Of a DNA stretch of 64,000 nucleotides, positions 23,215-62,763 are shown piece by piece. The notes beneath the pieces are model-generated. The model ran no database searches and had not been told where the DNA came from. It saw only the letters and a program-made list of their open reading frames with translations. Numbering within the stretch: position 1 is the stretch's first letter; each line of letters begins with the position of its first letter. A program made the position numbers and the translations under genes. Source of the DNA: an uncultured Flavobacteriaceae bacterium (GTDB lineage: Bacteria > Bacteroidota > Bacteroidia > Flavobacteriales > Flavobacteriaceae). Where the stretch lies: positions 62,001 through 126,000 of the forward strand of contig CAJIYH010000003.1 of NCBI GenBank assembly GCA_905181615.1, in the 5' to 3' direction.

Positions 23215-23233
23215 AATAAAGTAGGAATTATAC

Positions 23234-24367: not shown

Positions 24368-24405
24368 GGGTAATGGTTTATTAGTTATTTCTAGATTTGA
24401 TTATG

Positions 24406-44823: not shown

Positions 44824-46191
44824 TTAAGCGACTTGTTCTTCAGCCTCTTTTACAAAAAGGGAGAAAAATCCAGCAATTGCAAGACAAGCACCAGCCAATC
44901 GAATTACATTAATAGGATTGCTACCTAGAAGATCATAAACAAAATATTGCATTGAGAAAATCTGAATGATCATTGGAATTACAATGAACATGTTGAATAT
45001 TCCCATATAAACACCCATTTTATCACTTGGGATAGACGTGGCTAACATTTGGTATGGCATTGCCATCATCGATGCCCAGGTAATCCCCAATCCAAACGAA
45101 AATAAGTAAATTTGAGAAACAGCAATTCCACTACCAAGTGGTATGGTAAATAGAATGTCTGTATCGTTTAAATACGGCATGGCCATCAACCCAATCCCTC
45201 CTAGAAGAAGACTCAAGAAATGTAGGTTCTTTGCGCCCAACTTTCTTGCAATAGGAATCATTGGAAAAGCGATTAAAACACAAATAATGTTATAGGTACC
45301 GTTTAAATTTCCTGTTAAGAGTTGAGCTTGATTGAAAAACTCTGTACTCTCGTCTAAGGTGAAAAAAAGTGATAGCGATAAAGCAGAGGTTAGATATTGC
45401 CAGTAACAAAACATAGCGTACCAAGAGAAAAACATTACCGGTATGAGCTGTCTCATTGTTTTAGGCATTTTTACAAAAGAGGCTTTGATGTCGTTTAACG
45501 ATCTTAAAAAAGCGTTCCCTTTAGCTTTGTTGGCTTTTATAACTGCCAATTCCTCTTCAGTTGGTGGGTATTCAGATGTTGTTAATACAGTAACTAAAAT
45601 AGTCCCTATAGAGGCTATTGCTCCAATAGCAAATGCCCAATAGGTAGAAACTGGAATTCCGTTATCCATTTTGTCGCTTAAAGCTAGAATTCCAAAAGAA
45701 ACTAAAATAGCAGGAGTGAAGTTCGACATAACGCTTCCCAGCCCAGTAAAGAAGCTTTGCATTAAAAACCCTATTGAATACTGTTTTTTTGGAAGTTTAT
45801 CCGAAACAAATGCTCGATACGGTTCTAGAGCTACGTTATTGGCAGCATCTAAAATCCAAAGTAAACTTGCCGCCATCCAGATAGAACTTGAATAAGGCAT
45901 TACAACTAGAGCTACACTGGCTAATAAAGCTCCAATTAAAAAAAATGGTTTTCTTCTTCCAAGTTTTGGAGACCAAGTACCATCACTTATTGCACCAATA
46001 ATGGGTTGAACCAATAATCCTGTTACAGGGCCTGCAAGCCAAAGCATGGGTAACTCAGATTCATTTGCTCCGAGGTACTTGTAAATAGCACTCATGTTAC
46101 TTTGCTGCAATCCAAAACTAAATTGAACTCCAAAGAATCCGAAGTTCATGGTGAGAATTTGCCAAAAAGAAAGTTGTTTTTTTTGCATCAT
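44824..46191 (-). CDS. MFS transporter, SLC45/sugar:cation symporter-like
   Basis: A 455-residue inner membrane transporter with twelve predicted helices. MNFGFFGVQFSFGLQQSNMS, the loop between helices 2 and 3 with Asp70 and LGRRKPFF, and VGIAWASMMAMPYQML-like sequence (GITWASMMAMPYQML) resemble SLC45 and sucrose/maltose transporters of Bacteroidota sugar loci. Two ATG codons in tandem (46191, 46188) can serve as start. It is the last gene of the SusCD operon, 3 bases after the haloperoxidase, so it likely takes the product of that system into the cytoplasm. The substrate is inferred, not shown. Confidence 0.88.
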   Translation of the reverse strand: MMQKKQLSFWQILTMNFGFFGVQFSFGLQQSNMSAIYKYLGANESELPMLWLAGPVTGLLVQPIIGAISDGTWSPKLGRRKPFFLIGALLASVALVVMPYSSSIWMAASLLWILDAANNVALEPYRAFVSDKLPKKQYSIGFLMQSFFTGLGSVMSNFTPAILVSFGILALSDKMDNGIPVSTYWAFAIGAIASIGTILVTVLTTSEYPPTEEELAVIKANKAKGNAFLRSLNDIKASFVKMPKTMRQLIPVMFFSWYAMFCYWQYLTSALSLSLFFTLDESTEFFNQAQLLTGNLNGTYNIICVLIAFPMIPIARKLGAKNLHFLSLLLGGIGLMAMPYLNDTDILFTIPLGSGIAVSQIYLFSFGLGITWASMMAMPYQMLATSIPSDKMGVYMGIFNMFIVIPMIIQIFSMQYFVYDLLGSNPINVIRLAGACLAIAGFFSLFVKEAEEQVA

Positions 46192-46194
46192 AAT

Positions 46195-47550
46195 TTATTT
46201 TAAAGCAAGATTCTTGTTGTACCCTATGTAGGTTTGAATTCTTTTAACTACATGCTGACCAACTTCTTCTCCTTGTGCTACTCCTTCTTCAATTGCCATC
46301 ATGTAATGTATACCTCCATAAAGCCTGGACAGGGCAGCTTCTTCAGAAGCTTCTATAAAGGATCCGTAGGACCTAACGGGTAAACCGTATTCTATTTCTG
46401 TAGTATCTTCGAAGGAAAAATTATCGCCAAATAGGTCTGTTAGTGTTATTGCAGCAGCTCTAGAGATGACAGAGTGACCGCTAGTATATTCTGGAAAAGG
46501 TGGAGTCTGAAGAATAGGCAACCACTCTTCGTCATAGTGCTTGTTAATTAAAGTCTCTGGACGAACTACAAGGGTATTCCATTTTTCATCCCAACAACTT
46601 ATGAAAGCATCAAAAAGAGCAATAGATACATTAGTATAGGCATTTGTAGTTGCCTGAAAGTCACTTTTAGCTTTTCGAGTAACTAAAGATGTAATCCCGA
46701 TCCAATGTCCTCCTGGAGTTATTTTTTTAGTTGCAAACATCGCATGGCCTCTATGATGCGTTACATAAGGATTACAATCCCAAAATTTAGCAATCTCTAA
46801 TTGTTCGTCGGTTATGTTATTTACAATTTCAAAGACTTCGTTTAACTGAATTTGAAATGGGCTCCCTTTGGTTAAATCAAATTTTAATGGAGGCTTAGGC
46901 GGAAATTGATTGGAAGAGTCCAAAGCCATCGTTCGGATTTTTTTCCAATGCGGTTCAATTCCGTCCATATAGTCTGGTGGGGTTGGTTTCCAATAATATT
47001 CTTCTTCTTGGATGGTATATTTTGGATAGGTTCTTGTTTGATTGTATAAATCGCCTTTTGCCCAAGCTAAAATATGGTCGGCAACAACTTCGCCATATTT
47101 TTTTGAAGCCTTAAGTACTGAACCTGGAACTCCTCTTTCTTTTAGATCTTGATCTAGATTCTCTTGAAAAAGTGTCATTTTATCCTCTGAGAATATTAAT
47201 GCTTTTCCTACTTCATTAAAGGCATGAAGTGAAGCTATATTATAATTTACTTTTTCACTAGATGGTTTTGGTAAAGGCGCTAAGCCATTAACCTGTCCAC
47301 TTAACGATGCATAATTTTCTTGATTCGCCAATTGCATGGTCTGGTATGACGCTATAGCTGGATAAAGATAAACTCGGCTTGCTACAGGTGGAGAAAAAAT
47401 ATCATAAACAATAATGTCGGTTAGGTTTTTGACATTAGCTTGAACTAATTCAGGATCTTCTAATTTCTTTAGGTAGCTCAGGTCAGTTTCACAGCCAACC
47501 AAAAACAATTGAATCAGGAAGAGCATCAATAAATGTTTACTTATTTTCAT
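46195..47550 (-). CDS. Vanadium-dependent haloperoxidase / PAP2-family lipoprotein
   Basis: A 451-residue lipoprotein (lipobox LFLVGC, Cys20), starting at ATG 47550; an upstream in-frame extension lacks signal-peptide character. The vanadate/phosphate-binding set is complete: K323-x6-R330-P331, S357-G358-H359 in EYTSGHSV, and S408-R409-x5-H415. Two other conserved stretches are THHRGHAMFATKKITPGGHW and FQATTNAYTNVSIALFDAFI. Family members oxidise halides with peroxide or act as acid phosphatases, and these residues are shared by both. It overlaps the third FG-GAP gene by 14 bases and precedes the MFS gene. Confidence 0.9.
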   Translation of the reverse strand: MKISKHLLMLFLIQLFLVGCETDLSYLKKLEDPELVQANVKNLTDIIVYDIFSPPVASRVYLYPAIASYQTMQLANQENYASLSGQVNGLAPLPKPSSEKVNYNIASLHAFNEVGKALIFSEDKMTLFQENLDQDLKERGVPGSVLKASKKYGEVVADHILAWAKGDLYNQTRTYPKYTIQEEEYYWKPTPPDYMDGIEPHWKKIRTMALDSSNQFPPKPPLKFDLTKGSPFQIQLNEVFEIVNNITDEQLEIAKFWDCNPYVTHHRGHAMFATKKITPGGHWIGITSLVTRKAKSDFQATTNAYTNVSIALFDAFISCWDEKWNTLVVRPETLINKHYDEEWLPILQTPPFPEYTSGHSVISRAAAITLTDLFGDNFSFEDTTEIEYGLPVRSYGSFIEASEEAALSRLYGGIHYMMAIEEGVAQGEEVGQHVVKRIQTYIGYNKNLALK

Positions 47551-50500
47551 TTGATTTGGTTTTGGATAATAAATAAACATAATCATTATTTGACATAATT
47601 AACTTAGTTTCTTTGTCTAACTTAAGAATTCTTTTAGCATTTATTCCAATTGGAAGTGGTAAAAAAGCATCTTCTTCAAAGGTGTTTTTATCTGAATTCC
47701 ACTGAGAAAGCACCCCTCCGGTATTAGAAGAACTATTCCCTAAATCTGTAATATATTGATCGTAGTTCCCAACATAAAATAAGCGTAGAGTAGCATGGGA
47801 TTGGTCTAAATAAAATTCTTGTATGCTACTTAATTGTGCTTTGGGAGGAAGCGCATGTCCTTCAAACTTATTGTCCTTTTGGAGGTAAACCATAGATCTT
47901 GTTTCTACGATTTTTTTTATTTCCAAAATATCTTTTTCATTTCGGTCGGTCAAGTCTTGAATGTTTCTAACTCCAGAAAACTTTTTATAACTATTGAATT
48001 TTTTCTTTAGATAAGGTAGTTGAACAGATAACTTGTTTTTTGATGAAAATGGAACGTAGTCTCCAAAGTAGTTGTAAAAAATTATAGGATCTAGTTGCTC
48101 GTTTTCATCAAAATCATCTAAATAAAGAAATACAGGCTTTTCAACAGAAGCTTGCCACTTAAAGTTAGTTCCTGCATTACCTGCAATAATGTCAAGTAAA
48201 CCGTCACCATCAATATCTTCGATTGCAACTGTATTCCACATGCCTTCAGTGTCAGTCATATTCATGGACTGATTAGCAATTTCAAACTTAGCTGCACCTT
48301 TATTTAAAACTACAGTAATTGGCATCCAATCACCTACGACAACTAAATCAATTAAATCATCATTATTAATATCTGCCCAAGCGCTATCAGTTACCAAACC
48401 AAAACGACTTTTTAAAGTCATTTCAAATCCAAACATCGTATTGTTTCTCAATAAAAAACTATAAGGACTAAGTCCATAAGCTCCTGGTAGAGATCGACTA
48501 CCAATAAATAAATCGTCAAATCCATCGTTGTCAAAATCTGCTACCTCAACTGTACCTCCGTTTGTTTGTGCAAGAACTATTTTGAATCTAGAAAAATTAG
48601 CTTTACCATCGTTGATGTAGATTCGATCCATCAAATAGTTTTCGTTTTCTTTAAAATCTCCACCCCCGCTAACTACATAAAGATCTAGGTCTCCATCATT
48701 ATCAAAATCGAAGGAAGCTGCATCTACATCTTCAAAATTTATGTCTTTTATAAAGTCAATTGTTTTACGTTCAGTATAAGTTTTGTTTTTAGTTCCTATA
48801 TATAATTTTGATTCTTGATATCGAGCTCCCCCTATATAAATGTCTTTAATTCCATCACCATTAAAATCATTTAAAACTACTGCAGGCCCTTCTTTAGATA
48901 GTTTTTCTGGCATGAGCTGTTCTCTCTCATAATCTAAATAGATGTTTTCTTTGTGCTGAAATGAAAACACCGAAATAGTGTAATCTGGAATTTTAGTAGT
49001 TAGAAGTGATTTTTGATAAGCCTCTATATTCCGGTTAATAACCAATTCTTGGTTGGTTTGATAAGCTCCTAATCCTTGTGTTTTTCCGTCGGGCCATCTT
49101 ATAGAAATAGAATCTATTTTGCTTATTTCACCTAACCCAAAAAATAGTTTTTGAGTAGAAGAAGACTGAAATCCTTTAGTCGTTTGTTGTTCTTTTCTGA
49201 ACTTTTTTTGCCCTGCATAAAGAGTTACTTGTGTGCCTTTAATAATTGAGTAACTGGAGTCGCCTTTTAAGTTTATGGAAAGGTAATTAGATGAATCCCC
49301 AACAGTCTTGTTTTCTAAAATTGAAGCTTGAGCATTGAGGTTATTTAGTATTAAGTCTAAATCGCCGTCGTTATCCAAGTCGCTATATGCAGTTCCATTT
49401 GTTAATGAAGGTTTTCCAACAAAAGATTCTTTAACCTCACTAAATTGTAATTCCCCTTTATTTTTAAATAAAATGTTTGGTATTTTCAAAACAGGCATTT
49501 GACCTATAAGTTCCTTTTTGAGAATATCATCTTGAGATTTTTCATAGGCTGCATAATTAACATTACTAAGGAAGTTTATGTAATCCAAATCATTTGGCCT
49601 TTTAGCAATTCCGTTTGAAACAAAAATATCGTTCAATCCATCGTTGTCAAAATCTTGTAATAAAACAGACCAGCTCCAGTCTGTAGCAAAAGTTTGGGTT
49701 TTAAGTGCTATTTCTGCATAATCCCCATATTCTTTTTTAACATGAAAATGGTTCCTAGAAAATTGAGGTCCAAAACCAAGGTCTTTCTTAATTTGAGTAA
49801 CCTTATCTGTGTCTTCTCCACCTGATTTTAATAGTATATCAGCCTCATAAGGCATCATGTCTGTTGTAAAAAAATCAAACAATCCATCGTTATTCATGTC
49901 TGCAAAATCGATGCCCATTGTAAATCTAGAAGAGTGATTTATGTAAGTAGATGAAGACTCAGTGAAGGTCTTATCCTTATTGTTTATGTAGATATAATCA
50001 TTTTCATGAAAGTCGTTTCCTACATATAAATCCATCCAACCATCAGCATTAATATCTGAGGCAGTAATGGCAAGTCCATATCCTAAGGGACTGCTTAAAA
50101 TATTCGCCGCTTCTGTAACTTCTTCAAAAAAAGCCTTACCCTCATTCAATTTATTTTCATAAAAGCGATCCCCAGAAAGGCTGTCTTTTTCAGATCTTTT
50201 TTCAGTGGTTCCATAACTTCTTATGGAATGAATTCCGTGGTTTAAAAGATACATATCCAAGTCACCGTCTCGGTCATAGTCGAAAAAAGTTGCTTGTGTC
50301 GAGAATCCTGAAAAATTTAATCCATAAGCCTCTGATTGTTCAGTAAACGTATTATCTCCGTTATTTAAGTATAACATATTATGAGATCCTTTTTTATTGA
50401 ATAGACCTACTTTAGTAACATAAATATCAAGAAAGCCATCGTTATTTACATCTTCCAAAGAGACCCCATTAGACCAAGTTGCTTCCATGTCTAATCCAGC

Positions 50501-50821
50501 ACTTACAGATATATCTTCAAAGGTTAGGTTTCCTTTATTCAAATAAAGTCTATCGGGAAGTTGATTTGCAGAAAAATACAAATCCTCTAAGCCATCGTTA
50601 TTAATGTCCCCTACAGCTACTCCTCCACCATTATAATAATACAGGTATTCAATAATATTTAGTCCTGTAGAATACGTTAGCTGGTTTGAAAATGAAATCC
50701 CCGTTTGTTCTGCACCTAGGGTTACAAAAGGGATTGAATTGAGCGCGTCTCTGTCCTCTTGACAGCTTACTAAAAGTGAGATTAAACTAAAAAATAAAAA
50801 AAACTGTTTTAAATACTTCAT
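47537..50821 (-). CDS. FG-GAP/VCBS repeat lipoprotein with ASPIC/UnbV domain (third copy)
   Basis: A 1094-residue surface or periplasmic lipoprotein (LISLLVSC, Cys20). ATG 50821 overlaps the stop of the previous gene (ATGA). Calcium-binding FG-GAP repeats such as GDINNDGLEDLYFSAN, DVNNDGFLDIYVTK and DYDRDGDLDMYLLN fill residues 30-430, the ASPIC/UnbV core (KGFQSSSTQKLFFGLG, SIRWPDGKTQG) lies near 540-580, and more repeats follow to about 900. A beta-propeller/integrin-like fold is expected. Function is unknown. Paralogous to the two upstream copies. Confidence 0.92.
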   Translation of the reverse strand: MKYLKQFFLFFSLISLLVSCQEDRDALNSIPFVTLGAEQTGISFSNQLTYSTGLNIIEYLYYYNGGGVAVGDINNDGLEDLYFSANQLPDRLYLNKGNLTFEDISVSAGLDMEATWSNGVSLEDVNNDGFLDIYVTKVGLFNKKGSHNMLYLNNGDNTFTEQSEAYGLNFSGFSTQATFFDYDRDGDLDMYLLNHGIHSIRSYGTTEKRSEKDSLSGDRFYENKLNEGKAFFEEVTEAANILSSPLGYGLAITASDINADGWMDLYVGNDFHENDYIYINNKDKTFTESSSTYINHSSRFTMGIDFADMNNDGLFDFFTTDMMPYEADILLKSGGEDTDKVTQIKKDLGFGPQFSRNHFHVKKEYGDYAEIALKTQTFATDWSWSVLLQDFDNDGLNDIFVSNGIAKRPNDLDYINFLSNVNYAAYEKSQDDILKKELIGQMPVLKIPNILFKNKGELQFSEVKESFVGKPSLTNGTAYSDLDNDGDLDLILNNLNAQASILENKTVGDSSNYLSINLKGDSSYSIIKGTQVTLYAGQKKFRKEQQTTKGFQSSSTQKLFFGLGEISKIDSISIRWPDGKTQGLGAYQTNQELVINRNIEAYQKSLLTTKIPDYTISVFSFQHKENIYLDYEREQLMPEKLSKEGPAVVLNDFNGDGIKDIYIGGARYQESKLYIGTKNKTYTERKTIDFIKDINFEDVDAASFDFDNDGDLDLYVVSGGGDFKENENYLMDRIYINDGKANFSRFKIVLAQTNGGTVEVADFDNDGFDDLFIGSRSLPGAYGLSPYSFLLRNNTMFGFEMTLKSRFGLVTDSAWADINNDDLIDLVVVGDWMPITVVLNKGAAKFEIANQSMNMTDTEGMWNTVAIEDIDGDGLLDIIAGNAGTNFKWQASVEKPVFLYLDDFDENEQLDPIIFYNYFGDYVPFSSKNKLSVQLPYLKKKFNSYKKFSGVRNIQDLTDRNEKDILEIKKIVETRSMVYLQKDNKFEGHALPPKAQLSSIQEFYLDQSHATLRLFYVGNYDQYITDLGNSSSNTGGVLSQWNSDKNTFEEDAFLPLPIGINAKRILKLDKETKLIMSNNDYVYLLSKTKSNENK

Positions 50822-53800
50822 TGCTTTTTCCAAGTATAAATTTTTAAACTATCTCTATTTCTTGCTACGATCATTTGTTCTTCGTCAATTTGAATAGACC
50901 GTATTTGTCCAGGAAGTGAAAATCCATTTCCATCTTGATGAAACTCAAAAGTTGCATTTCCATTATTTTCAAGATAAACGCCATAAGACGCATCGTAAAT
51001 TCCAACTTCTGGTTTTGCATTATATAAATTACCTCCCATTACAACATCCAAATCTCCATCTTGGTCAAAATCAGCCGTATTGATAGCATAGACTGGACTA
51101 AATTGCACTTGATTAGGAAGCTCTACTTGTGTGAAAGAAAAATTTCCATTATTGATCCATAATTGAGTTTCTAATGTATTTACTTCTGTGATTTGAACTC
51201 CTTCCATTTGTTCCTTTGAAAATATCACATGAATATCGGCTTCCTTGAAAGATTCAAAATCTGGAAATTTCTTTTTCAAACTCTTTACTTGATCAATGAG
51301 GTTATGTCGTAATGCAAATGGAAAATATTTTCCATTCTCTGCTTTAAAAGTCAAAACACCTTCTTCAGCGCCATTGAGGTCAAAATCATTTAGGTACATG
51401 CGAATAGGAAATTTCTCAGAAGCTCTAAATCGGCTATTTGTTCCATGGTTTCCTATAAAAAAGTCAAGATCACCATCTCCATCGATATCTGCGGCATGAA
51501 TGGCGTTCCACCACCCTTTACTTGAAGCCATATCGTGGTTCTTATTTATTGAAAATCCCTGTGGGGTGTTTTCTAGAATTGTTATCCCCATAAACTCTCC
51601 TATAACAATTAAATCTTGATCGTCGTCTTGGTCTAAGTCTATAAACAAGGCATCGGTAATCATTCCAATATCTTTTAATTCAGAAGCTAATATTGACGTT
51701 TGATCTTCAAAAAAACCATCTCCATTGTTAACCAAAATATAACCTGACCCTGGCTTACCATAGGATCCTATTTTTGAGCGCTCACCAACAAACAAATCTT
51801 GATCTCCATCGCCATCAATATCTGCATATTCAACCACTCCTGAATTAATTCGACCATCTACAGAAGGAAGTTGTTGATTAGTTTTACTGAAGTTTCCATT
51901 TCCATCATTCAGCAATAAATCATCATATAAATAAGGTGAGAAAGAGGTAATTTCTACTCCTCCTGAAGCTAAATAAATATCTAAATCTTGATCACCATCA
52001 GCATCAAAAACTGCAATATCTGAATAATCTGAGCTTTTAAGTTTAGCAAAATCTGTAGTGTTAGAAATCGCATTATAAGAAATAAATCCACTTGATGTTC
52101 CTTTCGAAAAACTAACTTCATTGCTTTTAGAGCCTGGTATTACCAAATCGTTTTTACCGTCTTGATCAAAATCTGCTAGAGCGACATGAGGACCCTGCGT
52201 GCTCATCATATGATAAATTAATCGTTCTCTGTGAAAGTCTACAAAATTATTTTCCTGATGAACATAAGGGTTTAATTGATCTTTTGTTTTAAACAACAAA
52301 TCAGGTTGATCCATGAAAGTTTCCATAGCAAGAGCTTCAGATTCTTTTACCACAAGGGTTTGATTAGCTGAAATTTCTTTCAAAATTGAAACCTTACCGG
52401 AAGGCCATATGATTTCTACATCTGCCAGCAGAGCTTTACCAAGACCGATTAAAGGCATCGTCTCCATGCTGGACTGAAAACCACGCACTGGTTGGACTTC
52501 CTGGTAAATAGTTTTGTTGGGGGTTGTGATTTTTATCTTAGACCCTACGGCAAAAATATTTTTTTCAGCACCCTTAAGATCAAATTTTAAATACGAATTA
52601 GCAAAACGCTCTGCCGTGTTTTTAAAAACAAACAACGGCATATTCACGTTGTTTACAATCAAATCTAAATCTCCATCGTTATCTAAATCTCCGTATGCTG
52701 AACCATTAGAAAAACTTGGAATATTAAGTCCTGAAGATATGAAGAATTCAAAATCCAAATTACCTAAATTTTTATAAGAATGATTTGGAACTTTATTTGA
52801 AGGAATTATTTCTATGAGTCTATTATAATCAACTTTTTGATTGACTATCATCGATTTCATTACCTCTTCATTTGCAACATATTGAAGGTAATCTTGATTG
52901 GTAAGGTCTTGATATATTCCGTTGGCAATAAACAAGTCTTTGAAGCCATCGTTATCCATGTCAAAAAAGAGCGCACCCCAACTCCAATCTGAAGCTTCAA
53001 CTCCTGTAAAACGACCAATTTCGCTAAAAGTACCGTTGTTGTTGTTTAAGTGCAACATGTTTCTGGTAAACTGGTGGTGGTAACCATTTTTTACAACATA
53101 TTGATATTTATTCCAATCCTCAAATGTCGTAACTGTTTTCAGACGTTTATAGTCCGAAGGAAGCATTTCGGTTACAAAAATATCGTTGGCACCATCGTCA
53201 TTTAGATCTGCCATATCAGCACCCATCGAAGCACCACTTATCGAACGCATTTGCGAGGTTAAATCTTCTTCGAAGGTTCCGTCTTTTTGATTGAGGTATA
53301 AATAATCTCGTTCGAAAAAGTCATTGGACACAAAAATATCTTCCCAAGAATCTCCGTTTATATCGCCAACACTAACACCCAGTCCAAAGCCTATTACACT
53401 TCCATAAATACCAGCTGCTTCACTTACATCTGTGAAGACTCCGTTTTGGTTTTGCATTAATTTATCTCCTCCTTTAGGGTCTCGTTTGGGGCGTTCGTTT
53501 CTTCTAAGGTCAAAACTCCCAATTGCTTGATACGAGTTATTTAGAAGGTATGCATCCAAATCTCCATCTTTGTCATAATCAAAAAACGAAGCGTGCGTAG
53601 AAAAGCCCTGATCCGCTAGGTTATATTTTTCTGCAGATTCTGTAAAGGTTAAATCTCCGTTATTTATAAAAAACTCGTTTTGTTTATTATCTCCTTCTAC
53701 ATCGCCCGAGTTACAAACATAAATGTCGAGAAAGCCATCGGCATTAATATCTACCATGGTAACTCCTGTTGACCAAGCTTTGGTTCCACCTACACCAGCT

Positions 53801-54111
53801 TCATCGGTAATATCTTTAAATTTAAAATCTCCAAGGTTTAAAAACAGTTTATTTTGCTGCTGATTGGCAGTTAAATAAACATCAATTAGTCCGTCGTTAT
53901 TTATATCTCCGAGCGAAACTCCACCTCCGTTATAATAGTTTCGATAGGTATAAACATTGAATTTTTGATCGAACGATAAGTCATTTTGAAAAGACATTCC
54001 AATAGTTTCATTATTCTGAATTTGAAATAAATTTTCCTCTTTTTTGTTAGAACAAGAAAGCAGTGATAAAAGTCCTAATAGAAGAATAAAAAAATTTGCT
54101 ATCCCTTTCAT
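50818..54111 (-). CDS. FG-GAP/VCBS repeat lipoprotein with ASPIC/UnbV domain (second copy)
   Basis: A 1097-residue lipoprotein (LLSLLSC, Cys20). Repeats include GDINNDGLIDVYLTAN, DINADGFLDIYVCN, DYDKDGDLDAYLLN and, late, DIDGDGDQDLFVGE. The ASPIC/UnbV core has RGFQSSMETMPLIGLG and IIWPSGKVS (about 540-585). It is followed by VHQENNFVDFHRERLIYHMMS, a motif that all three copies share in similar form and may mark a functional surface. It begins 6 bases after the small lipoprotein gene and overlaps the third copy by 4 bases. Confidence 0.92.
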   Translation of the reverse strand: MKGIANFFILLLGLLSLLSCSNKKEENLFQIQNNETIGMSFQNDLSFDQKFNVYTYRNYYNGGGVSLGDINNDGLIDVYLTANQQQNKLFLNLGDFKFKDITDEAGVGGTKAWSTGVTMVDINADGFLDIYVCNSGDVEGDNKQNEFFINNGDLTFTESAEKYNLADQGFSTHASFFDYDKDGDLDAYLLNNSYQAIGSFDLRRNERPKRDPKGGDKLMQNQNGVFTDVSEAAGIYGSVIGFGLGVSVGDINGDSWEDIFVSNDFFERDYLYLNQKDGTFEEDLTSQMRSISGASMGADMADLNDDGANDIFVTEMLPSDYKRLKTVTTFEDWNKYQYVVKNGYHHQFTRNMLHLNNNNGTFSEIGRFTGVEASDWSWGALFFDMDNDGFKDLFIANGIYQDLTNQDYLQYVANEEVMKSMIVNQKVDYNRLIEIIPSNKVPNHSYKNLGNLDFEFFISSGLNIPSFSNGSAYGDLDNDGDLDLIVNNVNMPLFVFKNTAERFANSYLKFDLKGAEKNIFAVGSKIKITTPNKTIYQEVQPVRGFQSSMETMPLIGLGKALLADVEIIWPSGKVSILKEISANQTLVVKESEALAMETFMDQPDLLFKTKDQLNPYVHQENNFVDFHRERLIYHMMSTQGPHVALADFDQDGKNDLVIPGSKSNEVSFSKGTSSGFISYNAISNTTDFAKLKSSDYSDIAVFDADGDQDLDIYLASGGVEITSFSPYLYDDLLLNDGNGNFSKTNQQLPSVDGRINSGVVEYADIDGDGDQDLFVGERSKIGSYGKPGSGYILVNNGDGFFEDQTSILASELKDIGMITDALFIDLDQDDDQDLIVIGEFMGITILENTPQGFSINKNHDMASSKGWWNAIHAADIDGDGDLDFFIGNHGTNSRFRASEKFPIRMYLNDFDLNGAEEGVLTFKAENGKYFPFALRHNLIDQVKSLKKKFPDFESFKEADIHVIFSKEQMEGVQITEVNTLETQLWINNGNFSFTQVELPNQVQFSPVYAINTADFDQDGDLDVVMGGNLYNAKPEVGIYDASYGVYLENNGNATFEFHQDGNGFSLPGQIRSIQIDEEQMIVARNRDSLKIYTWKKQ

Positions 54112-54117
54112 TCGAGC

Positions 54118-54729
54118 TTATAAATTATATTTCAAGAGGGTGTTCTCAATTCGAAGTTCAACATAGCGACTATCTAAAATAAACATATGGATCTGTCTAT
54201 CTCCATCGATTTTTACTTTCGCGGGATGTGCTTCATCTTTTGTGTCAAAATCAATGAAATTATTTCCTGGATAAGGTGCTAATAAATCTGAACTAAGTTG
54301 GTTCATCAAATCATCGGATTGAAGAGCTTCGTTCCATGGTGCCCATGCAGCGTATGAAAATTTCATTTTCATACCGACAATGTTTTTTTTATCATCAAAA
54401 ACCCCGTAGAATAGCATGTCTATTTTATTGTCCGATGGAAAAAATGTACTTGTTGAATCAATTACGTAGAGTACTGATTGGTTTCCTGGACCTTGACTAA
54501 TTAGCCCTTTTTTATTTAATTCCCAACACTGTGTGTAAAAGTCTTTTTGTGTTTGGCCCATTTTTATTTTAAAAATAAGATCAGTATACTTTTCACCAGT
54601 TGCAGCTTCTGCTTTTACCAATTTAGTGAAATCAGATTGACATGCAGTAATGCTCAAAAAACCGAAAGCTAGAATCAGTAAAGGAATCTTAACTCTACTT
54701 AACTTTTTTAAATTTAACATCATCATCAT
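54118..54729 (-). CDS. Unrecognised lipoprotein between FG-GAP genes
   Basis: About 200 residues, not assigned to a family. Four ATG codons in a row (54729-54718) open it; the last (54720) is a likely start. Signal peptide then FLSITACQSD, a lipobox. The mature part begins with Lys/Glu-rich helix, then LIFKIKMGQTQKDFYTQCWELNKKG, which resembles the opening of BamE/SmpA-like small lipoproteins (G-x-T-x3), then beta-strand-like segments. It overlaps the 3' end of the first FG-GAP gene in another frame by about 26-35 bases. Its fixed place suggests a partner role for the FG-GAP proteins. Confidence 0.8.
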   Translation of the reverse strand: MMMMLNLKKLSRVKIPLLILAFGFLSITACQSDFTKLVKAEAATGEKYTDLIFKIKMGQTQKDFYTQCWELNKKGLISQGPGNQSVLYVIDSTSTFFPSDNKIDMLFYGVFDDKKNIVGMKMKFSYAAWAPWNEALQSDDLMNQLSSDLLAPYPGNNFIDFDTKDEAHPAKVKIDGDRQIHMFILDSRYVELRIENTLLKYNL

Positions 54730-57700
54730 TTATACTAATTAATAGGTGTTTTTTATTTTGAAAATCTATCTGTTCAATTGCTCTAATTTGACCTTTAACA
54801 CCCAAAGGTTTCGGTATTTTAAATAACATTTCGCCTGCATCATTATCAAAATCTAATCGCCAGCCTTTAGATGCATCATGCCTTCCAAACTGTGGTTTTA
54901 CCAAGTATTGATTTCCTCCCAAATATAATGACTTTTTTGATGTTTTTTGATCATTTAACAAAGCGATTGCATAGACCGAAGAGTATTGTATTTCAGCAGG
55001 TAATTCAATTGATTCAAAGCCTATTTTTGTTCCAAGAAAAAGAGAGGTTTGTAATATATCAATGTCGAAAAACTGACTTTCTTTTAGCGTCTTTTGATCA
55101 AAAATTTGATCCATACTTTTAGAAGCATAATCCTTATAGTAAACCATTTGTTTTTTTAGATAAGGGAGTTGACCAATAAGTTCATCTTTATCAATAATCG
55201 GGTAATATTTTCCGTCTTTTAAACTGGTGATAATTTGCTCTCTAGATCCATTTTGATCAAAATCATTTAAATACATCCGATACCCTTTTTCATAGAATGT
55301 ATTTTCTCCCATATTACCAGCGATAATATCGAGAATCCCATCTGAATTAAAATCGTCTACTAAAAGTGTGTTCCACAATCCTGAGGTTATTTTTAATCCA
55401 TATTCTTTAGTTGCGTTTTCAAAAACACCTCCATCATTAAGAAGAATCGTCAAGGGCATCCATTCTCCAGACAAAACTAGGTCAATCTGTTGGTCGTTAT
55501 TGATGTCTATAGCCTGAGCTCCCGTAATCATTCCAATATCATTTAGAGCGTCTTGTTCTTGATATTCAAATTGATTGCCACCTAAATTCATCATCAAAAA
55601 ACCGGAGCCTTTAAGTCCGTATGTGTCCGGATGAAAACGTTCACCCACAAAGATATCTATCTTGCCATCTCCATTAAAATCTGCTGCTGCTAGAGCGCCT
55701 GTTGAAATGTGTTTAGGAAAGTTAAATGATTGGGTTGTTTTTGTGAAATTTCCATTTCCATCGTTAATATAATATCGATCATCTAAAAGTGAAGAAAATT
55801 TAGAAAAAACCTTTCCCCCTGACGCTACAAATAAATCAAGGTCTCCATCTTGGTCTCCATCAAAAAATAAAGAGACTACATCTTCTGAGGATTCATCTTT
55901 TTCAAAAGGAAATGTTATTTCATCATAACCTCCTTTGGTGGAGGAAATAAAAAGTACAGCTGATTGATTTTTTCCGCCTCCTATAAAAACATCATCTTGT
56001 CCATCTTTATTTATATCAGCAACCGAAACAGAAGGTCCTTCGTTGTGATGCATTTCAGGAAGTAAACGTTCTCTATTAAATTCTATAAAGTTGTTTTCTT
56101 TATGCTTGAAATTAAATGGATTTTTTAAGTTTGTCACCATAACTTCATCAAGGACAGCAGAAGTTTGAGAACTAGTTACAGCATCCTGTTCGTACAACGA
56201 ATAATGCTTGTTTGTTTTTAAATTATAGAGGATTTGTTTTTTGTTGCTTGGCCAAAAAACAATTGCGCTATCGATTACTTGGGTTGAACCTGTTCCAAAA
56301 TGAAGTCGGTTACTAACTGAGGATTGAAAACCACGAGAAGGAAACTGCTCCGCCATGGCTCTTTTGTTTTTATTGTAATAAAGAAGAATTTTAGCGCCCA
56401 CACCAAATTTATTATTTTCTACCCCTTTGAAATCAAAAGTCAAACTCCTTTGGCTAAGGGTGTCTGTTTTATTTTCATAAATAAAGGAAGGCATATTGAC
56501 ATTGTTAACCAATAAATCTAAGTCCCCATCATTGTCTAGATCTGCATAGGCATTTCCATTAGAAAAACTGGGCTGATCTAATCCCCAAGTTTGGGTACTT
56601 TCCTCAAAGTCAAAGTTTCCCTTGTTTTTATAAGCAAAGTTAGGAACAGCTTCAGAGGGCATAATATCGATCAACTTTTTGATAACTCCTTCTTGTTTTT
56701 GTATCAACAGCCTAACCTGTTCTTCGTTTGCCATATAAGCCAAGTAATCTCGATCTAATAAATCTTTATTAATTCCATTGGAAATAAAAATATCCTTAAG
56801 TCCGTCATTATCAATATCAAAAATTAGAGAAGCCCAGCTCCATTCTGTTGCTGCAACACCACTTTTTCTCCCAATTTCAAAAAAGCCATTTTTCCCCATA
56901 TTACGTTGCAGCATATTTCTAGGAAACTGCTGTGAATAACCTCTTTTTTGGGTGAGAGCATATTTATCCCATGAATCGTATTTAGCTTTTGTTTTTTTTC
57001 GCTCCAATGTAGATGGAAGCATTTCGGTAACCAAAAGGTCAGGAAGTAAGTCGTTGTCTAAATCCGCTGCATCAGCACCCATAGATCCCATAGAGAGGGA
57101 TTCAAAATAAGTGTCCGAAAGCTCATCAAAACCACCTTCAGTTGTGTTTAGGTATAAATAATCTTTTTCAAAAAAGTCATTAGAAATGAAAAGATCGGGC
57201 CAGCTATCGTTATTAAAATCAGAAATAGTAATTCCAAGCCCAAAACCAATTGAGCTTGAATACATTCCTACTCCTGTAGTGACGTCATAAAATTTGTTAT
57301 CTCTATTCTCAAAAAATTTATTGCCGTTGTTGTTGGCATCAACTATCTCCCGCTGACCTTCTATTAGATCATACCCGCCTACACTTCTAATTGAGTTATT
57401 AAGAACATAACAATCTAGGTCTCCGTCCTTGTCAAAATCAAAAAAAGCAGCATGAACTGAAAGTCCTGTAACGTCTAAACCGTATTCTTTGGATTGCTCC
57501 TTGAACGTAAGGTCTCCGTTATTGATGAATAGTTCGTTGTTTCTATTGCTTCCGCCTGGCTTACCAGACTTACAAACATATAGATCCAAAAAACCATCTC
57601 CATTAACATCTGCAAAAGTAGCCCCTGTAGACCATACATTTGCACAAGCAACACCAGCAGTGTTTGTGATTTCCTCAAATTTCCAGTTTCCTTTGTTTAG

Positions 57701-57955
57701 AAAAAGTTTATTATCAACAATGTTTCCTGTAAAATAAACATCGACTAAACCGTCGTTATTGATGTCACCTATTGCAATTCCAGCACCATTATAAAAATTA
57801 CGGTAAGTATAGGGATTGAACTCTTCGGTATAGATTAAATCATTAAAAAATTCCATTCCAATTTGTTTGTCTTTAAGCTCAAATTTAGGAGCAGAAGGTT
57901 CATTACATCCTGACAGAAATATTGATAGCGTAATGAGACAAAAGAATTTTTTCAT
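54695..57955 (-). CDS. FG-GAP/VCBS repeat lipoprotein with ASPIC/UnbV domain (first copy)
   Basis: A 1086-residue lipoprotein (SIFLSGC, Cys17). Repeats include GDINNDGLVDVYFTGN, DVNGDGFLDLYVCK and DFDKDGDLDCYVLN; ASPIC/UnbV core with SRGFQSSVSNRLHFGTG and IVFWPSNKKQ near 540-585, then FKHKENNFIEFNRERLLPEMH. Such proteins bind calcium and probably form large propellers on the cell surface. It is separated from susD by 85 bases that hold a strong hairpin, so its expression relative to SusCD may be reduced. It shares layout with the two later copies. Confidence 0.92.
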   Translation of the reverse strand: MKKFFCLITLSIFLSGCNEPSAPKFELKDKQIGMEFFNDLIYTEEFNPYTYRNFYNGAGIAIGDINNDGLVDVYFTGNIVDNKLFLNKGNWKFEEITNTAGVACANVWSTGATFADVNGDGFLDLYVCKSGKPGGSNRNNELFINNGDLTFKEQSKEYGLDVTGLSVHAAFFDFDKDGDLDCYVLNNSIRSVGGYDLIEGQREIVDANNNGNKFFENRDNKFYDVTTGVGMYSSSIGFGLGITISDFNNDSWPDLFISNDFFEKDYLYLNTTEGGFDELSDTYFESLSMGSMGADAADLDNDLLPDLLVTEMLPSTLERKKTKAKYDSWDKYALTQKRGYSQQFPRNMLQRNMGKNGFFEIGRKSGVAATEWSWASLIFDIDNDGLKDIFISNGINKDLLDRDYLAYMANEEQVRLLIQKQEGVIKKLIDIMPSEAVPNFAYKNKGNFDFEESTQTWGLDQPSFSNGNAYADLDNDGDLDLLVNNVNMPSFIYENKTDTLSQRSLTFDFKGVENNKFGVGAKILLYYNKNKRAMAEQFPSRGFQSSVSNRLHFGTGSTQVIDSAIVFWPSNKKQILYNLKTNKHYSLYEQDAVTSSQTSAVLDEVMVTNLKNPFNFKHKENNFIEFNRERLLPEMHHNEGPSVSVADINKDGQDDVFIGGGKNQSAVLFISSTKGGYDEITFPFEKDESSEDVVSLFFDGDQDGDLDLFVASGGKVFSKFSSLLDDRYYINDGNGNFTKTTQSFNFPKHISTGALAAADFNGDGKIDIFVGERFHPDTYGLKGSGFLMMNLGGNQFEYQEQDALNDIGMITGAQAIDINNDQQIDLVLSGEWMPLTILLNDGGVFENATKEYGLKITSGLWNTLLVDDFNSDGILDIIAGNMGENTFYEKGYRMYLNDFDQNGSREQIITSLKDGKYYPIIDKDELIGQLPYLKKQMVYYKDYASKSMDQIFDQKTLKESQFFDIDILQTSLFLGTKIGFESIELPAEIQYSSVYAIALLNDQKTSKKSLYLGGNQYLVKPQFGRHDASKGWRLDFDNDAGEMLFKIPKPLGVKGQIRAIEQIDFQNKKHLLISINDDDVKFKKVK

Positions 57956-58040: not shown

Positions 58041-59651
58041 TTAGTATCCAGGATTCTGTGTTAAACCTGCACCAGCTTGAATTTGATCAAACGGGATTGG
58101 GAATAAAGCAGTGTGATCGTCAGCCTCAGTTGGCTTTTCCCACCAAGCACTAGTCCATTGACCGAAACGAATAAGGTCAGTTCTTCTAGAAGTTTCTTGG
58201 AACATCTCACGACCTCTTTCCGCTAAGAAATCTGCCGCAGTTAAAGAACTCATTGCAGATACACCTGCTCTAGCTCTAATAGCATTAACATCTGCTAAAG
58301 TTGCAGCATCGCTCCAGTTAGAAACTACACGTGCTTTAGCCTCTGCACGAACAAGGTGTACATCTCCTAAACGAATGATTGGAAAATCATTGTTTTGATC
58401 AGGACGACCAAATTGTTGGAAGCTAAATTTACCTAAACGAGCACCACCTTCTCTTAAAGCATTAGGCTGAAGTTCGTTAATGTTAGGCGTGTATACTAAT
58501 GGCGGGTCACCGTCATCAGAAGCGTAATCTAATACTGCAGATCCACCAAAGTCTAACTGTGCTCCAACGATAAAGTTATTTGCACGACGTAAATCTCCAG
58601 CCTCGTAAGAGTTATAGAAATCTTCTAATGCAGCATATCCGTTCCACGGTTGATCTTGGAAGTTCCAGGTAAACTGTGAAGCATAATGTAAAGTCATTTT
58701 AGCGAAATTCATACCACCGGCAGTAGCTTCATCATAATTAACAGTAAAAATATGCTCTGGATTACCTTGGTTGTTAGGAGCAAAAACTGCTGCATAACCA
58801 GTTAAGGTATTTGGATCAGAATCTACAGCAGGACGTTTCCCTAAGTTAGGAACTGAAACGCTAGAGTCAGATAAAGAGTAAGGTCCGTTTGTGATAATAT
58901 AATCAGCTGCATCATGAGCTTCTTGATATTTTGCAACACCAGTATAAGCTTCAGAATTTAAGTATAATTTAGAAAGGATACCTAAAGCAGCATAACGGTT
59001 AATTCTGTATGCATTAGCCTCTAATCCAAGTGGACTTGAAGAAAGGTCCATTGAAGCAGTAATCGCAGATACTCCAAGAGTTGCTAACAATTCTGTTTCA
59101 ATAAAATTAAATACTTGCTGAGGATTAGATTGCGTAGCCGATTGACCAGGAGTTGTTACAATTTTAACACTTCCAAACATATCTAATAACCTCCAGTAGA
59201 AATATGCTCTTAAAGCCTTTAACTGAGCTTTTTGAGAATTATCTAAATCTAGGTTAGCAATTGCATCGTTGATGTTACCAATTGCGCCGTATTGACCGTT
59301 CCACGCACTTCCAACCATACCGTTTGTAGGAGAGTAAGTGTGTTGGTGAACCTCTATAAGAACTCCTCCATCATACCAGTCACCACCTTTAGCGGCAATA
59401 GCCATTTCATCTGAAGCAATTCCGTTAAGAGAAAAATAGCCAAAGTGATTCGCGGTTCCAGAATTTCTTAATTCTGCGTAAGCACCAGCAAGGGCATCTC
59501 CGCCTCCGCTTCCGCTTCCTGCACTAGCAGGAGCATCAACCGATACTGCTGTAGTGATGTCCCCAACTAACTCTTCATCAAGATCTGTACATGAAAAAAG
59601 TACAACTGAAGCGATAGTGGCAAGCAACATTGTTTTAAACAAACTTTTCAT
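58041..59651 (-). CDS. susD: SusD/RagB family outer membrane lipoprotein
   Basis: A 536-residue surface lipoprotein (VVLFSC, Cys21), followed by a Ser/Gly-rich linker (about 43-50). The SusD fold shows in KALRAYFYWRLLDMFGSV, RYAALGILSKLYLNSEAYTG and the C-terminal FPIIRLGDVHLVRAEAKAR, VNAIRARAGV and FLAERGREM...RTDLIRFGQW, ending FPIPFDQIQAGAGLTQNPGY. It caps the SusC channel and binds the glycan or other ligand. It follows susC by 18 bases. The symbol names the family, not a proven starch role. Confidence 0.95.
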   Translation of the reverse strand: MKSLFKTMLLATIASVVLFSCTDLDEELVGDITTAVSVDAPASAGSGSGGGDALAGAYAELRNSGTANHFGYFSLNGIASDEMAIAAKGGDWYDGGVLIEVHQHTYSPTNGMVGSAWNGQYGAIGNINDAIANLDLDNSQKAQLKALRAYFYWRLLDMFGSVKIVTTPGQSATQSNPQQVFNFIETELLATLGVSAITASMDLSSSPLGLEANAYRINRYAALGILSKLYLNSEAYTGVAKYQEAHDAADYIITNGPYSLSDSSVSVPNLGKRPAVDSDPNTLTGYAAVFAPNNQGNPEHIFTVNYDEATAGGMNFAKMTLHYASQFTWNFQDQPWNGYAALEDFYNSYEAGDLRRANNFIVGAQLDFGGSAVLDYASDDGDPPLVYTPNINELQPNALREGGARLGKFSFQQFGRPDQNNDFPIIRLGDVHLVRAEAKARVVSNWSDAATLADVNAIRARAGVSAMSSLTAADFLAERGREMFQETSRRTDLIRFGQWTSAWWEKPTEADDHTALFPIPFDQIQAGAGLTQNPGY

Positions 59652-59669: not shown

Positions 59670-62600
59670 TTAAAATTTAATGTTTACACCCAAAGTAAAT
59701 GATCTAGAAGCGAAATAACTATTTCTTCTATCCATACCTGGAGACAATACATCTGATCCACCACCATTTTCACCTATATCAACTAAAGCTGGCTCTGGGT
59801 CTAGACCTGTATAACTCGTCAAAACGATTGGATTTTGAGCGTTTAATGAAATTTGAATTGAATCGAAAGAATCCGAACCACTCATATCAAAATTACGGGT
59901 AACTGTAAGGTTATCTAATTTAAAGAAATCAGCTTTTTCAACATATAATGAACTGAAACGAGCAGTTGTTAAACCGTCTTGAGCTAACTCTGTATTAACG
60001 TAGTTGTAAGAACCTTGAGTAGATAATCTTGGCTCATAGAAAGCACGGAATGTGTTTACTAAACTGTGACCAAATGCTCCTCTAAAGAATGCGTTGATTG
60101 TCCAGTCGCCAAAAGCGATTTGGTTAGTCCAACCTAATTCAAGATCAGGAATACCATTACCTAGTTCAGTAAAATCAACATTATCATCAAGAGCTTTATC
60201 TTGACCAACAATTAACTCACCATCTCCATTAATATCTTGGAAAACAGGATTTCCTCCAGAAACGCTTTCAAATATTGGACCCCAAATTTGACCGATTTCT
60301 TCTCCTTTTTTAACACGGATAACAGAAGTAGAATTTTGACCAGGTGCACCTAATTCAGCTCTAACCTCAGCATCTAAAACATAATCTTCAAGAATTGTTT
60401 TGTAGTTAGAAAGAACAAGACCTGTAGTGTACATGTCATTAACTTCATAGTTTAAAGCTAATTCAACTCCTTTAGTATTCAATGTACCAGCATTCTCGTA
60501 ACGACGTCCTGTTGGGTATAACGATACGTCAACATCACGTTCTAATATAAAGTCAGATATATCTCGAGTATACAAGTCTAAAGTTGCATCCCATTTACCT
60601 TTACGGTATTCAATACCTAAGTTTGTTTCAGCTTTTTCTTCCCATTTAAGTGTTGGGTTAGCATCACGACTTGGAGAAGATGATCCACCACCTTGACCAC
60701 CGTCATAAGTAAAGTTTCTGATTTGTTGTGAAAGACCATTTGGTCCAGGTAAAGCACCTGTTACACCATAACCAACACGAACTTTAAATTTGTCAGCACC
60801 TGTGTTTAAGTATTTATTTAAATCAACACCTACACCAATAGCAGGGAAAAGACCCCACTGCTCATCAGCTCCTAACTTAGAAGAACCTTCACGACGAATA
60901 GAAGCGTTAACAAAAATACCATCATCAATTGTTATGTTAGCACGACCAAAGAATGCAATAATTCTATCATCAGGGCTTACATTCGAATTTGCTCCGATTA
61001 AACCAGCGTTTAATAAATCTTGAGAATATTCAATTGCGTTTATATAATCCAAAGAATCATCTGGAAAATCTCCAAGTGAAAGGAAATGATCTTCAAAATT
61101 TTGCTGTTGGAAAGAGTAACCTGCAGTTAAAACAACACTAGCAGAACCGAGGTTAAGGTTATAGTTACCATATACTTCAGCTAATTTGAAGCTGTATGTT
61201 TGATCATAAAATTCAGCTGAACCTTTTCTTAATGGAGAAGCAGCGTTACCACCTCTTAATAATGTAGTAGGGTTATATAGCTTGTTAGAGTAGTTACTTA
61301 CTTGATTTGCAAAGTTACCGTTGATACTTAAAGCATCAGTAAATCTGTAATTCAAGTTAACACTATAGTTTACTTCAGTTTTATCCCCTTCGTTAATTTG
61401 CTGTTCAGCAATAGAAACAGGATTGTAAGAATCAAATAAACCTAATGTTTCGAAATATCCACCATATTGCTCAGAGGCAAATTGGTAAGGAGAATTAACT
61501 CCGTAAACTGGTGCAGTTGGGTTATATAAAACTGCATATTTCATAGACTCACTAGATCCATTGTTTTGCTCTCTTTTAGTTAAAGCAGAGTTGAAATTGA
61601 TCGTAAGTTTATCGTTAAGTGCTTTTGTAGAGAAATTCAAACGTGTGTTAAATTGTTTGAAGTCAGAGCTAATTAAAACTCCTTCTACATTTCTAAAGTT
61701 AGCAGAAACACGATAAGAAGTATCTCCTTGTCCACCAGCAGCAGAAAAGTTATGGATACTTGTCATAGCTTGACGCGTTACCTTGTCAACCCAATCCGTA
61801 CTACTTCCTAAGTCAGTACCTCCTGCAGCAACAAACTCTGCAGCAGTCATAATGTCTACTGTGTTCATCGCAGAAGTTACACCGAATTGACCGTTATAGT
61901 TAAACTGAACTTTACCTTCTTTACCACCTTTAGTGGTAACTAAAATTACCCCTGAAGATCCACGAGAACCATAAATTGAAGCAGCAGAACCGTCTTTAAG
62001 GACGTTAATGCTTTCTATATCTGAAGGGTCAACGTTAGCAAGAGATGCTCCAATTACACCATCTATAACAATCAAAGGCTGTGCATTTGATCCAACTGTA
62101 GAGATACCTCTTAAGCGGATAGTAGCAGCAGCATTAGGGTTACCCCCTCTGTTGTAAACTTGTAAACCTGCAACCTTACCTTGTAAAAGTTGAGAGGCAT
62201 CACTAATTGAACCTTGGTTGAAATCTTCAGCGTCTACCTTAACAACAGCAGCTGTAATTTCTTTTTGACGTTGAGAACCATAACCTGTAACAACAACTTC
62301 ATCAAGTTCATTGTTCGTAGCTAGAGTAATTGTGATTTGATCTTGTCCTGCAACAGCAACTTCTTGCGTTGTAAAACCAACAAATGAAACCTCTAATACA
62401 GCATCTGCAGAAGCAGCAATGCTAAAGTTTCCATCAAAATCAGTAGTAACACCGTTTGTTGTTCCTTTAACAACAACGGTTGCCCCAGGTAGGGGACCAT
62501 CTTCACTCGTGACCGTACCGGATACAGACTGAGCGTACATCCCTAAACCTACAAAAAAAAGTAGGGCAGAAAGAAATGCTTTAAATTGATTTTTTTTCAT
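59670..62600 (-). CDS. susC: SusC/RagA family TonB-linked outer membrane transporter
   Basis: A 976-residue TonB-dependent transporter. Signal peptide (to MYAQ), a carboxypeptidase-regulatory-like domain (about 25-95), TonB box region DEVVVTGYGSQRQ, plug with LQGKVAGLQVYNRGG, RLRGISTVG and GSRGSSGVILVTTKGGK, then a 22-strand barrel closing in RSFTLGVNIKF. With SusD it forms the lidded importer for large ligands. First gene of the operon, divergent from the LacI-family gene. The symbol names the family; substrate is not known. Confidence 0.96.
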   Translation of the reverse strand: MKKNQFKAFLSALLFFVGLGMYAQSVSGTVTSEDGPLPGATVVVKGTTNGVTTDFDGNFSIAASADAVLEVSFVGFTTQEVAVAGQDQITITLATNNELDEVVVTGYGSQRQKEITAAVVKVDAEDFNQGSISDASQLLQGKVAGLQVYNRGGNPNAAATIRLRGISTVGSNAQPLIVIDGVIGASLANVDPSDIESINVLKDGSAASIYGSRGSSGVILVTTKGGKEGKVQFNYNGQFGVTSAMNTVDIMTAAEFVAAGGTDLGSSTDWVDKVTRQAMTSIHNFSAAGGQGDTSYRVSANFRNVEGVLISSDFKQFNTRLNFSTKALNDKLTINFNSALTKREQNNGSSESMKYAVLYNPTAPVYGVNSPYQFASEQYGGYFETLGLFDSYNPVSIAEQQINEGDKTEVNYSVNLNYRFTDALSINGNFANQVSNYSNKLYNPTTLLRGGNAASPLRKGSAEFYDQTYSFKLAEVYGNYNLNLGSASVVLTAGYSFQQQNFEDHFLSLGDFPDDSLDYINAIEYSQDLLNAGLIGANSNVSPDDRIIAFFGRANITIDDGIFVNASIRREGSSKLGADEQWGLFPAIGVGVDLNKYLNTGADKFKVRVGYGVTGALPGPNGLSQQIRNFTYDGGQGGGSSSPSRDANPTLKWEEKAETNLGIEYRKGKWDATLDLYTRDISDFILERDVDVSLYPTGRRYENAGTLNTKGVELALNYEVNDMYTTGLVLSNYKTILEDYVLDAEVRAELGAPGQNSTSVIRVKKGEEIGQIWGPIFESVSGGNPVFQDINGDGELIVGQDKALDDNVDFTELGNGIPDLELGWTNQIAFGDWTINAFFRGAFGHSLVNTFRAFYEPRLSTQGSYNYVNTELAQDGLTTARFSSLYVEKADFFKLDNLTVTRNFDMSGSDSFDSIQISLNAQNPIVLTSYTGLDPEPALVDIGENGGGSDVLSPGMDRRNSYFASRSFTLGVNIKF

Positions 62601-62703: not shown

Positions 62704-62719
62704 AACGAAATCGTTTTCG
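62704..62719. promoter_or_regulatory. Candidate operator in the susC-lacI divergent region
   Basis: AACGAAATCGTTTTCG holds the partly palindromic AACGAAATCGTT (one mismatch) and the nested CGAAA-TCGT-TTTCG. A second short palindrome, TTAACAGTTAA, lies at 62692-62702. The site is placed 18 bases upstream of a TATATTTG element for the LacI-family gene and 104 bases before susC. LacI-family operators are CG-centred palindromes of similar length, so this is a plausible target of the adjacent regulator. Confidence 0.45.
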
Positions 62720-62737
62720 AATTACAAAATTGATCTG

Positions 62738-62745
62738 TATATTTG
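62738..62745 (+). promoter_or_regulatory. Candidate -7 promoter element TATATTTG upstream of the LacI-family gene
   Basis: TATATTTG is an exact TAnnTTTG match 18 bases before ATG 62764. It overlaps the only upstream in-frame start codon (62743), which supports the shorter gene. The candidate operator covers its expected -33 region. Confidence 0.5.
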
Positions 62746-62763
62746 GTGATATTTATCATTTTA

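Follow-up and report, generated by a model that had tools for sequence, protein, structure and literature searches.

A probable vanadium iodoperoxidase relative in a putative sugar-linked operon of a Flavobacteriaceae bacterium and its changing UnbV and SusCD neighbours

The PF01569 (PAP2) model of Pfam takes in phosphatases and haloperoxidases alike. It was the only Pfam name obtained (33.4 bits against a curated cut-off of 27.2) for an enzyme encoded in the window analyzed here, a whole stretch of 64,000 nucleotides from an uncultured Flavobacteriaceae bacterium. The gene lies in one run with genes for SusC, SusD and UnbV proteins, and the locus raises the question of what the enzyme does and whether this company has a part in it.

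The start adopted for the gene (Table 1) lies 12 codons inside the frame of the mechanical ORF list, which opens at 47586. Numbered from that start, the protein contains K323-x6-R330-P331, S357-G358-H359 and S408-R409-x5-H415, with Thr at position 356. Its N-terminus, MKISKHLLMLFLIQLFLVGC, fits a lipobox with Cys20 according to a simple pattern, not a trained predictor, and the enzyme is probably lipidated at this residue. A sequence-only reading had described a haloperoxidase-family lipoprotein with every signature residue intact, and the ORF and the residue positions were found as claimed. The seven vanadate-site residues (K323, R330, S357, G358, H359, R409 and H415) are identical to those of the Zobellia vanadium iodoperoxidase 4cit, and we take their roles in vanadate binding and catalysis to be those of the haloperoxidase family. 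Residues 7-439 aligned with 4cit/4usz at 504.7 bits (E 2.4e-150, about 51% identity); a chance match of the motifs was rejected because of this full-length homology.

The conservation of the site was determined in an alignment of 164 family ORFs, that of the window included, plus 4cit, in which groups were cut at 58% identity to the window enzyme or to 4cit. All seven residues were those of 4cit in 152 of the 165 rows (4cit and window included), the 13 exceptions comprising 12 rows that belong to neither main clade and one shortened close relative. Among the close relatives the site residues were invariant in 79/79 rows (78 for H415, one row being shortened). PAP2 and class A acid phosphatases carry the motif KxxxxxxRP ... 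PSGH ... SRxxxxxHxxxD. The window enzyme has KxxxxxxRP and SRxxxxxH, with TSGH for PSGH and Ala419 at the place of the HxxxD Asp. Thr precedes SGH in 79/79 close relatives, 20/24 members of the Zobellia group and 40/60 others, as well as in 4cit; the earlier remark that Thr is unusual where Pro is expected is correct for the generic motif but not within this family, where Thr is the rule, and Thr as a sign of altered function was rejected. Four residues after the His, Ala was found in 78/78 close and 24/24 Zobellia-group rows, and Asp in 9 of the 60 others. The other PAP2 protein of the genome, which reads SRVYIGVHYPLD, keeps the Asp. The red-algal 1qhb row of the PDB alignment reads HYFSD, so that this Asp alone cannot separate the two activities.

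In a single-sequence search of the PDB, 4cit/4usz were followed by five further matches at E 0.0017-0.66, each a haloperoxidase or NapH homologue; phosphatases were absent from the matches at E <= 1, 6/6 of which were haloperoxidases or NapH homologues. With a 44-row profile, 13/13 sequences at E <= 0.01 were haloperoxidases or NapH-type homologues. The AlphaFold model of the enzyme (pLDDT 91.5) superposed on 4usz with Z 56.3 and an rmsd of 1.6 Å over 408 residues, in comparisons taken from Foldseek and VIA match lists, which do not rule out other folds. NapH1, NapH3, XhnO11 and the fungal vanadium chloroperoxidases, which are larger chains with 18-19% identity to the window enzyme, have the same overall fold over about 370-380 residues (Z 30-32). 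Acid phosphatases scored Z 12-14 over only about 195-204 residues; what they share with the enzyme is mainly the C-terminal half and the K-x6-RP/SGH/SR-x5-H residues. Algal and cyanobacterial bromoperoxidases did no better than these phosphatases (Z 11.6-13.8), so the fold separates haloperoxidases from phosphatases only via the nearer enzymes. What the modelled fold shows is kinship with haloperoxidases of bacteria and fungi, and not with every kind of haloperoxidase.

The earlier view that haloperoxidase and PAP2 phosphatase could not be told apart was therefore too cautious: sequence, whole-chain fold and the missing HxxxD Asp favour a Zobellia-type vanadium haloperoxidase, and kinship with the iodoperoxidase described from that seaweed bacterium is very probable. 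By itself the enzyme is ordinary: one more member, with intact machinery, such as could be expected in a known family.

A FastTree phylogeny of the 165 rows placed the window enzyme in an 82-row clade (support 98) of Flavobacteriaceae, Reichenbachiellaceae, Cyclobacteriaceae and others, and 4cit in a separate 25-row clade (support 100); both fell within a 118-row group whose support of 94 is under the star threshold of the tool. Since this subfamily stands apart from the assayed Zobellia enzyme, halide specificity is a property that we infer. The nearest named relative by tree path was Candidatus Arcticimaribacter forsetii (locus L004), with 17.6 kb alignable at 77% DNA identity. A family hit from the same genus, G010, shares its contig coordinates with the window, which makes this genus the probable source of the window. 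Family members were found in 30/100 genomes and in 84/395 Bacteroidota genomes (E <= 1e-10, the window's own genome counted in both) and, outside Bacteroidota, in a Gemmatirosa record of the plasmid collection (50.7%).

Zg-VIPO1 (4cit, 4usz) resembles the window enzyme in its full-length fold, its vanadate-site residues, TSGH and a Cys ending the signal stretch, and differs in subfamily and in having Tyr and Ala where the window enzyme has W324 and M418. W324, which adjoins a site residue, was found in 79/79 close relatives, against Tyr in 22 and Phe in 2 of the Zobellia group; M418, near a site residue, in 78/78 against mostly Ala; and R364, another clade difference beside the site, in 73/79. 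W320, F352 and Y262 match 4cit. The gene following the enzyme encodes an MFS protein in the window and, at the Zg-VIPO1 locus, a member of a cluster with a GyrI-like representative. The SusCD genes upstream are a further difference from that locus.

Two other activities have to be weighed against iodide oxidation. On the PAP2 site, the protein could be a secreted acid phosphatase for sugar phosphates or other substrates, removing phosphate outside the inner membrane so that the MFS protein imports the free sugar. The Pfam name points that way, as does a sugar context made up of a LacI regulator, a weakly sucrose-like MFS protein and, near some relatives, families for trehalase, GH65, FGGY and ROK kinases or alpha-amylase; moreover, apo-chloroperoxidase, a vanadium enzyme, can act on phosphate according to the title of PDB 3bb0. 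Against these points stand the PDB sequence matches, the whole chain going with 4usz, and TSGH together with Ala at the place of the HxxxD Asp, which the other PAP2 protein of the genome retains, and we regard a phosphatase as unlikely. The enzyme could also be a vanadium haloperoxidase that is not iodide-specific, either oxidizing bromide or doing a non-halogenating job as NapH3 does. Here the clade differences at W324, M418 and R364 count in favour, together with the fold shared with NapH-type enzymes (Z 31-32), and a 2026 paper describes the residues that set halide preference as largely unknown (PMC13198595). On the other side, the vanadate set is that of 4cit throughout, as are W320, F352 and Y262, and ZgvIPO1, the nearest assayed relative, showed only iodoperoxidase activity as a control in PMC10427571. 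This alternative appears unlikely, though less so than a phosphatase. Support for iodide as the substrate comes from that assay of the nearest relative.

On the minus strand the order of genes is SusC, SusD, UnbV3, p203, UnbV2, UnbV1, enzyme and MFS, the SusC/SusD pair being separated from the enzyme downstream by four genes and about 10.5 kb (Table 1). Because neighbours overlap or lie at most 85 bases apart, these eight genes are likely to form one operon. From the lipobox-like starts of SusD, the three UnbV proteins, p203 and the enzyme, the run would encode six successive lipoproteins. Over the relatives a crude lipobox pattern was present in 87/164 enzymes, 88/193 UnbV, 19/25 p203 and 5/42 SusD proteins, but no use was made of these counts because the pattern and the choice of starts are both poor. 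The small protein p203 recurs between UnbV genes in the loci of relatives; its model (pLDDT 89.8) had no PDB match at E <= 0.001, the best being 4ygt at 4.5e-3. The MFS protein matched the sucrose symporter model TIGR01301 weakly, far below the cut-off. Further downstream lie genes for a malic enzyme/phosphotransacetylase fusion, RuvA and an SprA-type protein. In the genome as a whole (2.19 Mb, 95.5% complete) there are two PAP2 matches, five UnbV matches (three at this locus) and three SusD matches. Elsewhere in the window, positions 21790-27599 encode an unremarkable MacB-type ABC exporter set that includes HlyD-type and outer-membrane efflux components.

Table 1. Features of the enzyme locus, in window positions
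Feature	Position	Strand	Remarks
MFS transporter (MFS_1)	44824..46191	-	3 bases after enzyme
Vanadium haloperoxidase-family lipoprotein, 451 aa	46195..47550	-	ATG at 47550, stop ending at 46195
UnbV1, FG-GAP repeats and UnbV_ASPIC, lipobox-like start	47537..50833	-	14-base overlap of its stop with the enzyme start; uncertain whether it begins at TTG 50833 or at an internal ATG
UnbV2, FG-GAP repeats and UnbV_ASPIC, lipobox-like start	50818..54111	-	
p203, small probable lipoprotein, no Pfam family	54118..54729	-	
UnbV3, FG-GAP repeats and UnbV_ASPIC, lipobox-like start	54695..57955	-	
SusD-family protein, lipobox-like start	58041..59651	-	
SusC-type TonB-dependent receptor	59670..62600	-	
LacI-operator-like near-palindrome GAAATCGTTTTC, one mismatch	62707..62718	.	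between LacI and SusC; weak evidence
LacI-family regulator with sugar-binding domain	62743..63780	+	divergent from SusC

As in polysaccharide utilization loci, the window has an adjacent SusC-SusD pair, a LacI regulator and an MFS carrier; it differs from them in that no glycoside hydrolase, lyase or esterase, the CAZyme part of such loci, was among the Pfam matches of the eight-gene run. The same matches of the operon proteins included no H2O2-producing oxidase family. The operator-like pattern recurred perfectly in L028 and with one mismatch in L050, and was not found, with the same pattern, in L016, L005, L006, L008, L009 or L010. Since it occurs 25 times in the window, it is weak evidence for an operator.

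The constancy of the neighbourhood was assessed in 20 genomes of 17 genera with a strong family member, picked regardless of UnbV. In 16 of them the best member had a UnbV gene no more than 10 kb away, and in 15 of these 16 it lay upstream on the same strand; G274, G162, G135 and G200 had none within that distance. Random placement would give 0.40 of 20, and the highest count in 200,000 simulations was 6, well short of 16, a result that is indicative because the genomes are related and their sizes were rounded. For four second family members, UnbV was nearby in two and absent in two. At the level of loci, UnbV was among the two upstream same-strand genes in 43/77 close relatives (window included), 18/24 of the Zobellia group and 25/59 others, three close loci and one other being left out for short flanks. 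SusC or SusD was present in 31/80 close, 7/24 Zobellia-clade and 24/60 other stretches, an undercount where UnbV fills the flank, and neither Sus nor UnbV genes were found in 23/80, 3/24 and 22/60; these counts are rough since the stretches differ in length and some are short. SusC and SusD together within six genes occurred in 0/24 of the Zobellia clade, partly a flank effect (SusD alone in 6/24). The Zobellia-like locus L143/L220, of which L143 is the genome with a 98.4%-identical copy of 4cit, has three UnbV genes directly upstream of the enzyme, and no SusC/SusD profile match was found in about 20 kb upstream and 8 kb downstream. FG-GAP/UnbV_ASPIC proteins are a steadier partner across Bacteroidota than SusCD, and neither is obligatory.

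The coupling to SusCD genes put forward from the sequence alone is real in the window genome, but it is not a fixed feature: SusCD comes and goes while the enzyme stays, and the uptake setting drawn from it is for that reason suggestive only. In some close relatives the enzyme keeps a LacI or MFS neighbour with SusCD and UnbV absent or much diverged. In L005, L006, L008, L009 and L010 a LacI protein 85-87% identical to that of the window adjoins the enzyme, and no SusC, SusD, UnbV or MFS match was found in the stretch; L017, L021, L022, L037 and L070 have MFS without SusCD or UnbV. Compared with the window, L003 and L004 have enzymes at 85% and 84%, MFS proteins at 90% and 92% and malic enzymes at 91% each; their UnbV proteins stand at 55-61% in L003 and 76-83% in L004, and p203 at 37% versus 75%. 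L014, L019 and L028 combine SusC, SusD and a single distant UnbV (34-35%) with an enzyme at 70-71%. Such identities suggest that the block has been replaced and lost around a retained enzyme.

Other arrangements were seen beside family members. Downstream of the MFS gene of L003, at 12872-13766, a SusC start remnant (108 aa, 75% to that of the window) lies beside a partial p203, which we read as the trace of an older or second block. In L055, L056, L059 and L061-L063 a PSD1/PSCyt2-DUF1501-propeller-PSCyt1 set (families read on L055, the other five loci assigned by clustering) is followed by the enzyme and then SusC; in four of these six loci SusD comes after SusC. L188, L191-L193 and L195 have the order SusC, SusD, a small gene in four of the five, a copper monooxygenase/cytochrome-like protein (family read on L191 only), UnbV and enzyme, another oxidative variant of the neighbourhood. 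Among the matches listed from the openly licensed PubMed Central literature, we found no description of the neighbourhood of the enzyme with UnbV/SusCD and none of a bacterial role for UnbV surface proteins.

The link with SusCD might also be accidental, the enzyme being a stand-alone surface protein at a spot where mobile uptake blocks land. The five loci with only LacI beside the enzyme, the five with MFS alone, the stretches with neither Sus nor UnbV (some of them short) and L143/L220, with UnbV and no SusC/SusD match, are all what this explanation would lead one to expect. It accounts poorly for the recurrence of UnbV in 16/20 genomes and for SusC or SusD in many stretches of all three groups, although a chance expectation was given for UnbV only. 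We consider an accidental link a serious possibility, somewhat short of even odds.

In the window the links to sugars are the LacI regulator and the weakly sucrose-like MFS protein. Trehalase, SSF symporter, FGGY and ROK kinase, GH65 and alpha-amylase families lie near some relatives, and trehalase is at most six genes away in 8/77 close, 8/24 Zobellia-clade and 4/59 other members. Trehalose as the common substrate was dropped, the window's genome having no match to the trehalase family, and is kept only as a hint of a sugar context. As for peroxide, no PF00199 catalase match was found in this genome. Outside the window, at G000:C2:826162-828025, matches to the KatG-type peroxidase PF00141 are spread over separate open frames, which may represent one gene that is split or frameshifted; since such katG-type pieces exist, we do not claim the enzyme as the only peroxide defence. 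Iodine uptake by Arenibacter C-21, whose genome has at least five ZgVIPO1 homologues, needs glucose or, instead, an H2O2-generating or iodide-oxidizing system (PMC5064120). In Zobellia, vIPO3 was upregulated with Ascophyllum versus alginate (PMC9296495).

Taking these points together, we give a probability of about 0.7 to the reading that the enzyme is a vanadium-dependent haloperoxidase with a lipid anchor, of the Zobellia iodoperoxidase type, making hypoiodite outside the cytoplasm and encoded in a sugar-linked operon. Points against it are the identity of no more than about 51% to the assayed enzyme, the place in another clade, the clade-specific W324 and M418 beside the site, the low fold scores of the algal and cyanobacterial bromoperoxidases, the PAP2 name in Pfam, the absence of an H2O2-producing oxidase family from the Pfam matches of the operon proteins and the action of apo-chloroperoxidase on phosphate. 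By analogy with the family, vanadate would sit on H415, held by K323, R330, S357, G358 and R409, with H359 as acid/base; H2O2 would form peroxovanadate, which would oxidize iodide to hypoiodite. Hydrogen peroxide would be consumed, and reactive iodine would arise in the periplasm or on the outside of the cell. Transcription probably starts at the SusC promoter and covers the gene together with those of SusC, SusD, the three UnbV lipoproteins, p203 and the sugar-type MFS protein, and a shared transcript beside a LacI regulator would probably tie its expression to a sugar signal. Our favoured guess for its physiological role is that it removes peroxide at the surface and iodinates while the cell feeds on algal sugars.

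The changing UnbV/SusCD company, not the enzyme, is the part of interest. A bolder interpretation, in which a constant surface haloperoxidase with exchangeable UnbV/SusCD modules forms a sugar-switched hypoiodite device for uptake or protection, widespread in Bacteroidota, is offered as a long shot. If the UnbV lipoproteins are true partners of the enzyme, they would provide a functional handle on this group of surface proteins, and marine bacterial iodine oxidation would be tied to sugar uptake and not to defence or secondary metabolism. The finding also adds small-genome marine Flavobacteriaceae to the probable carriers of iodoperoxidases, a point relevant to which organisms oxidize iodide in surface water.
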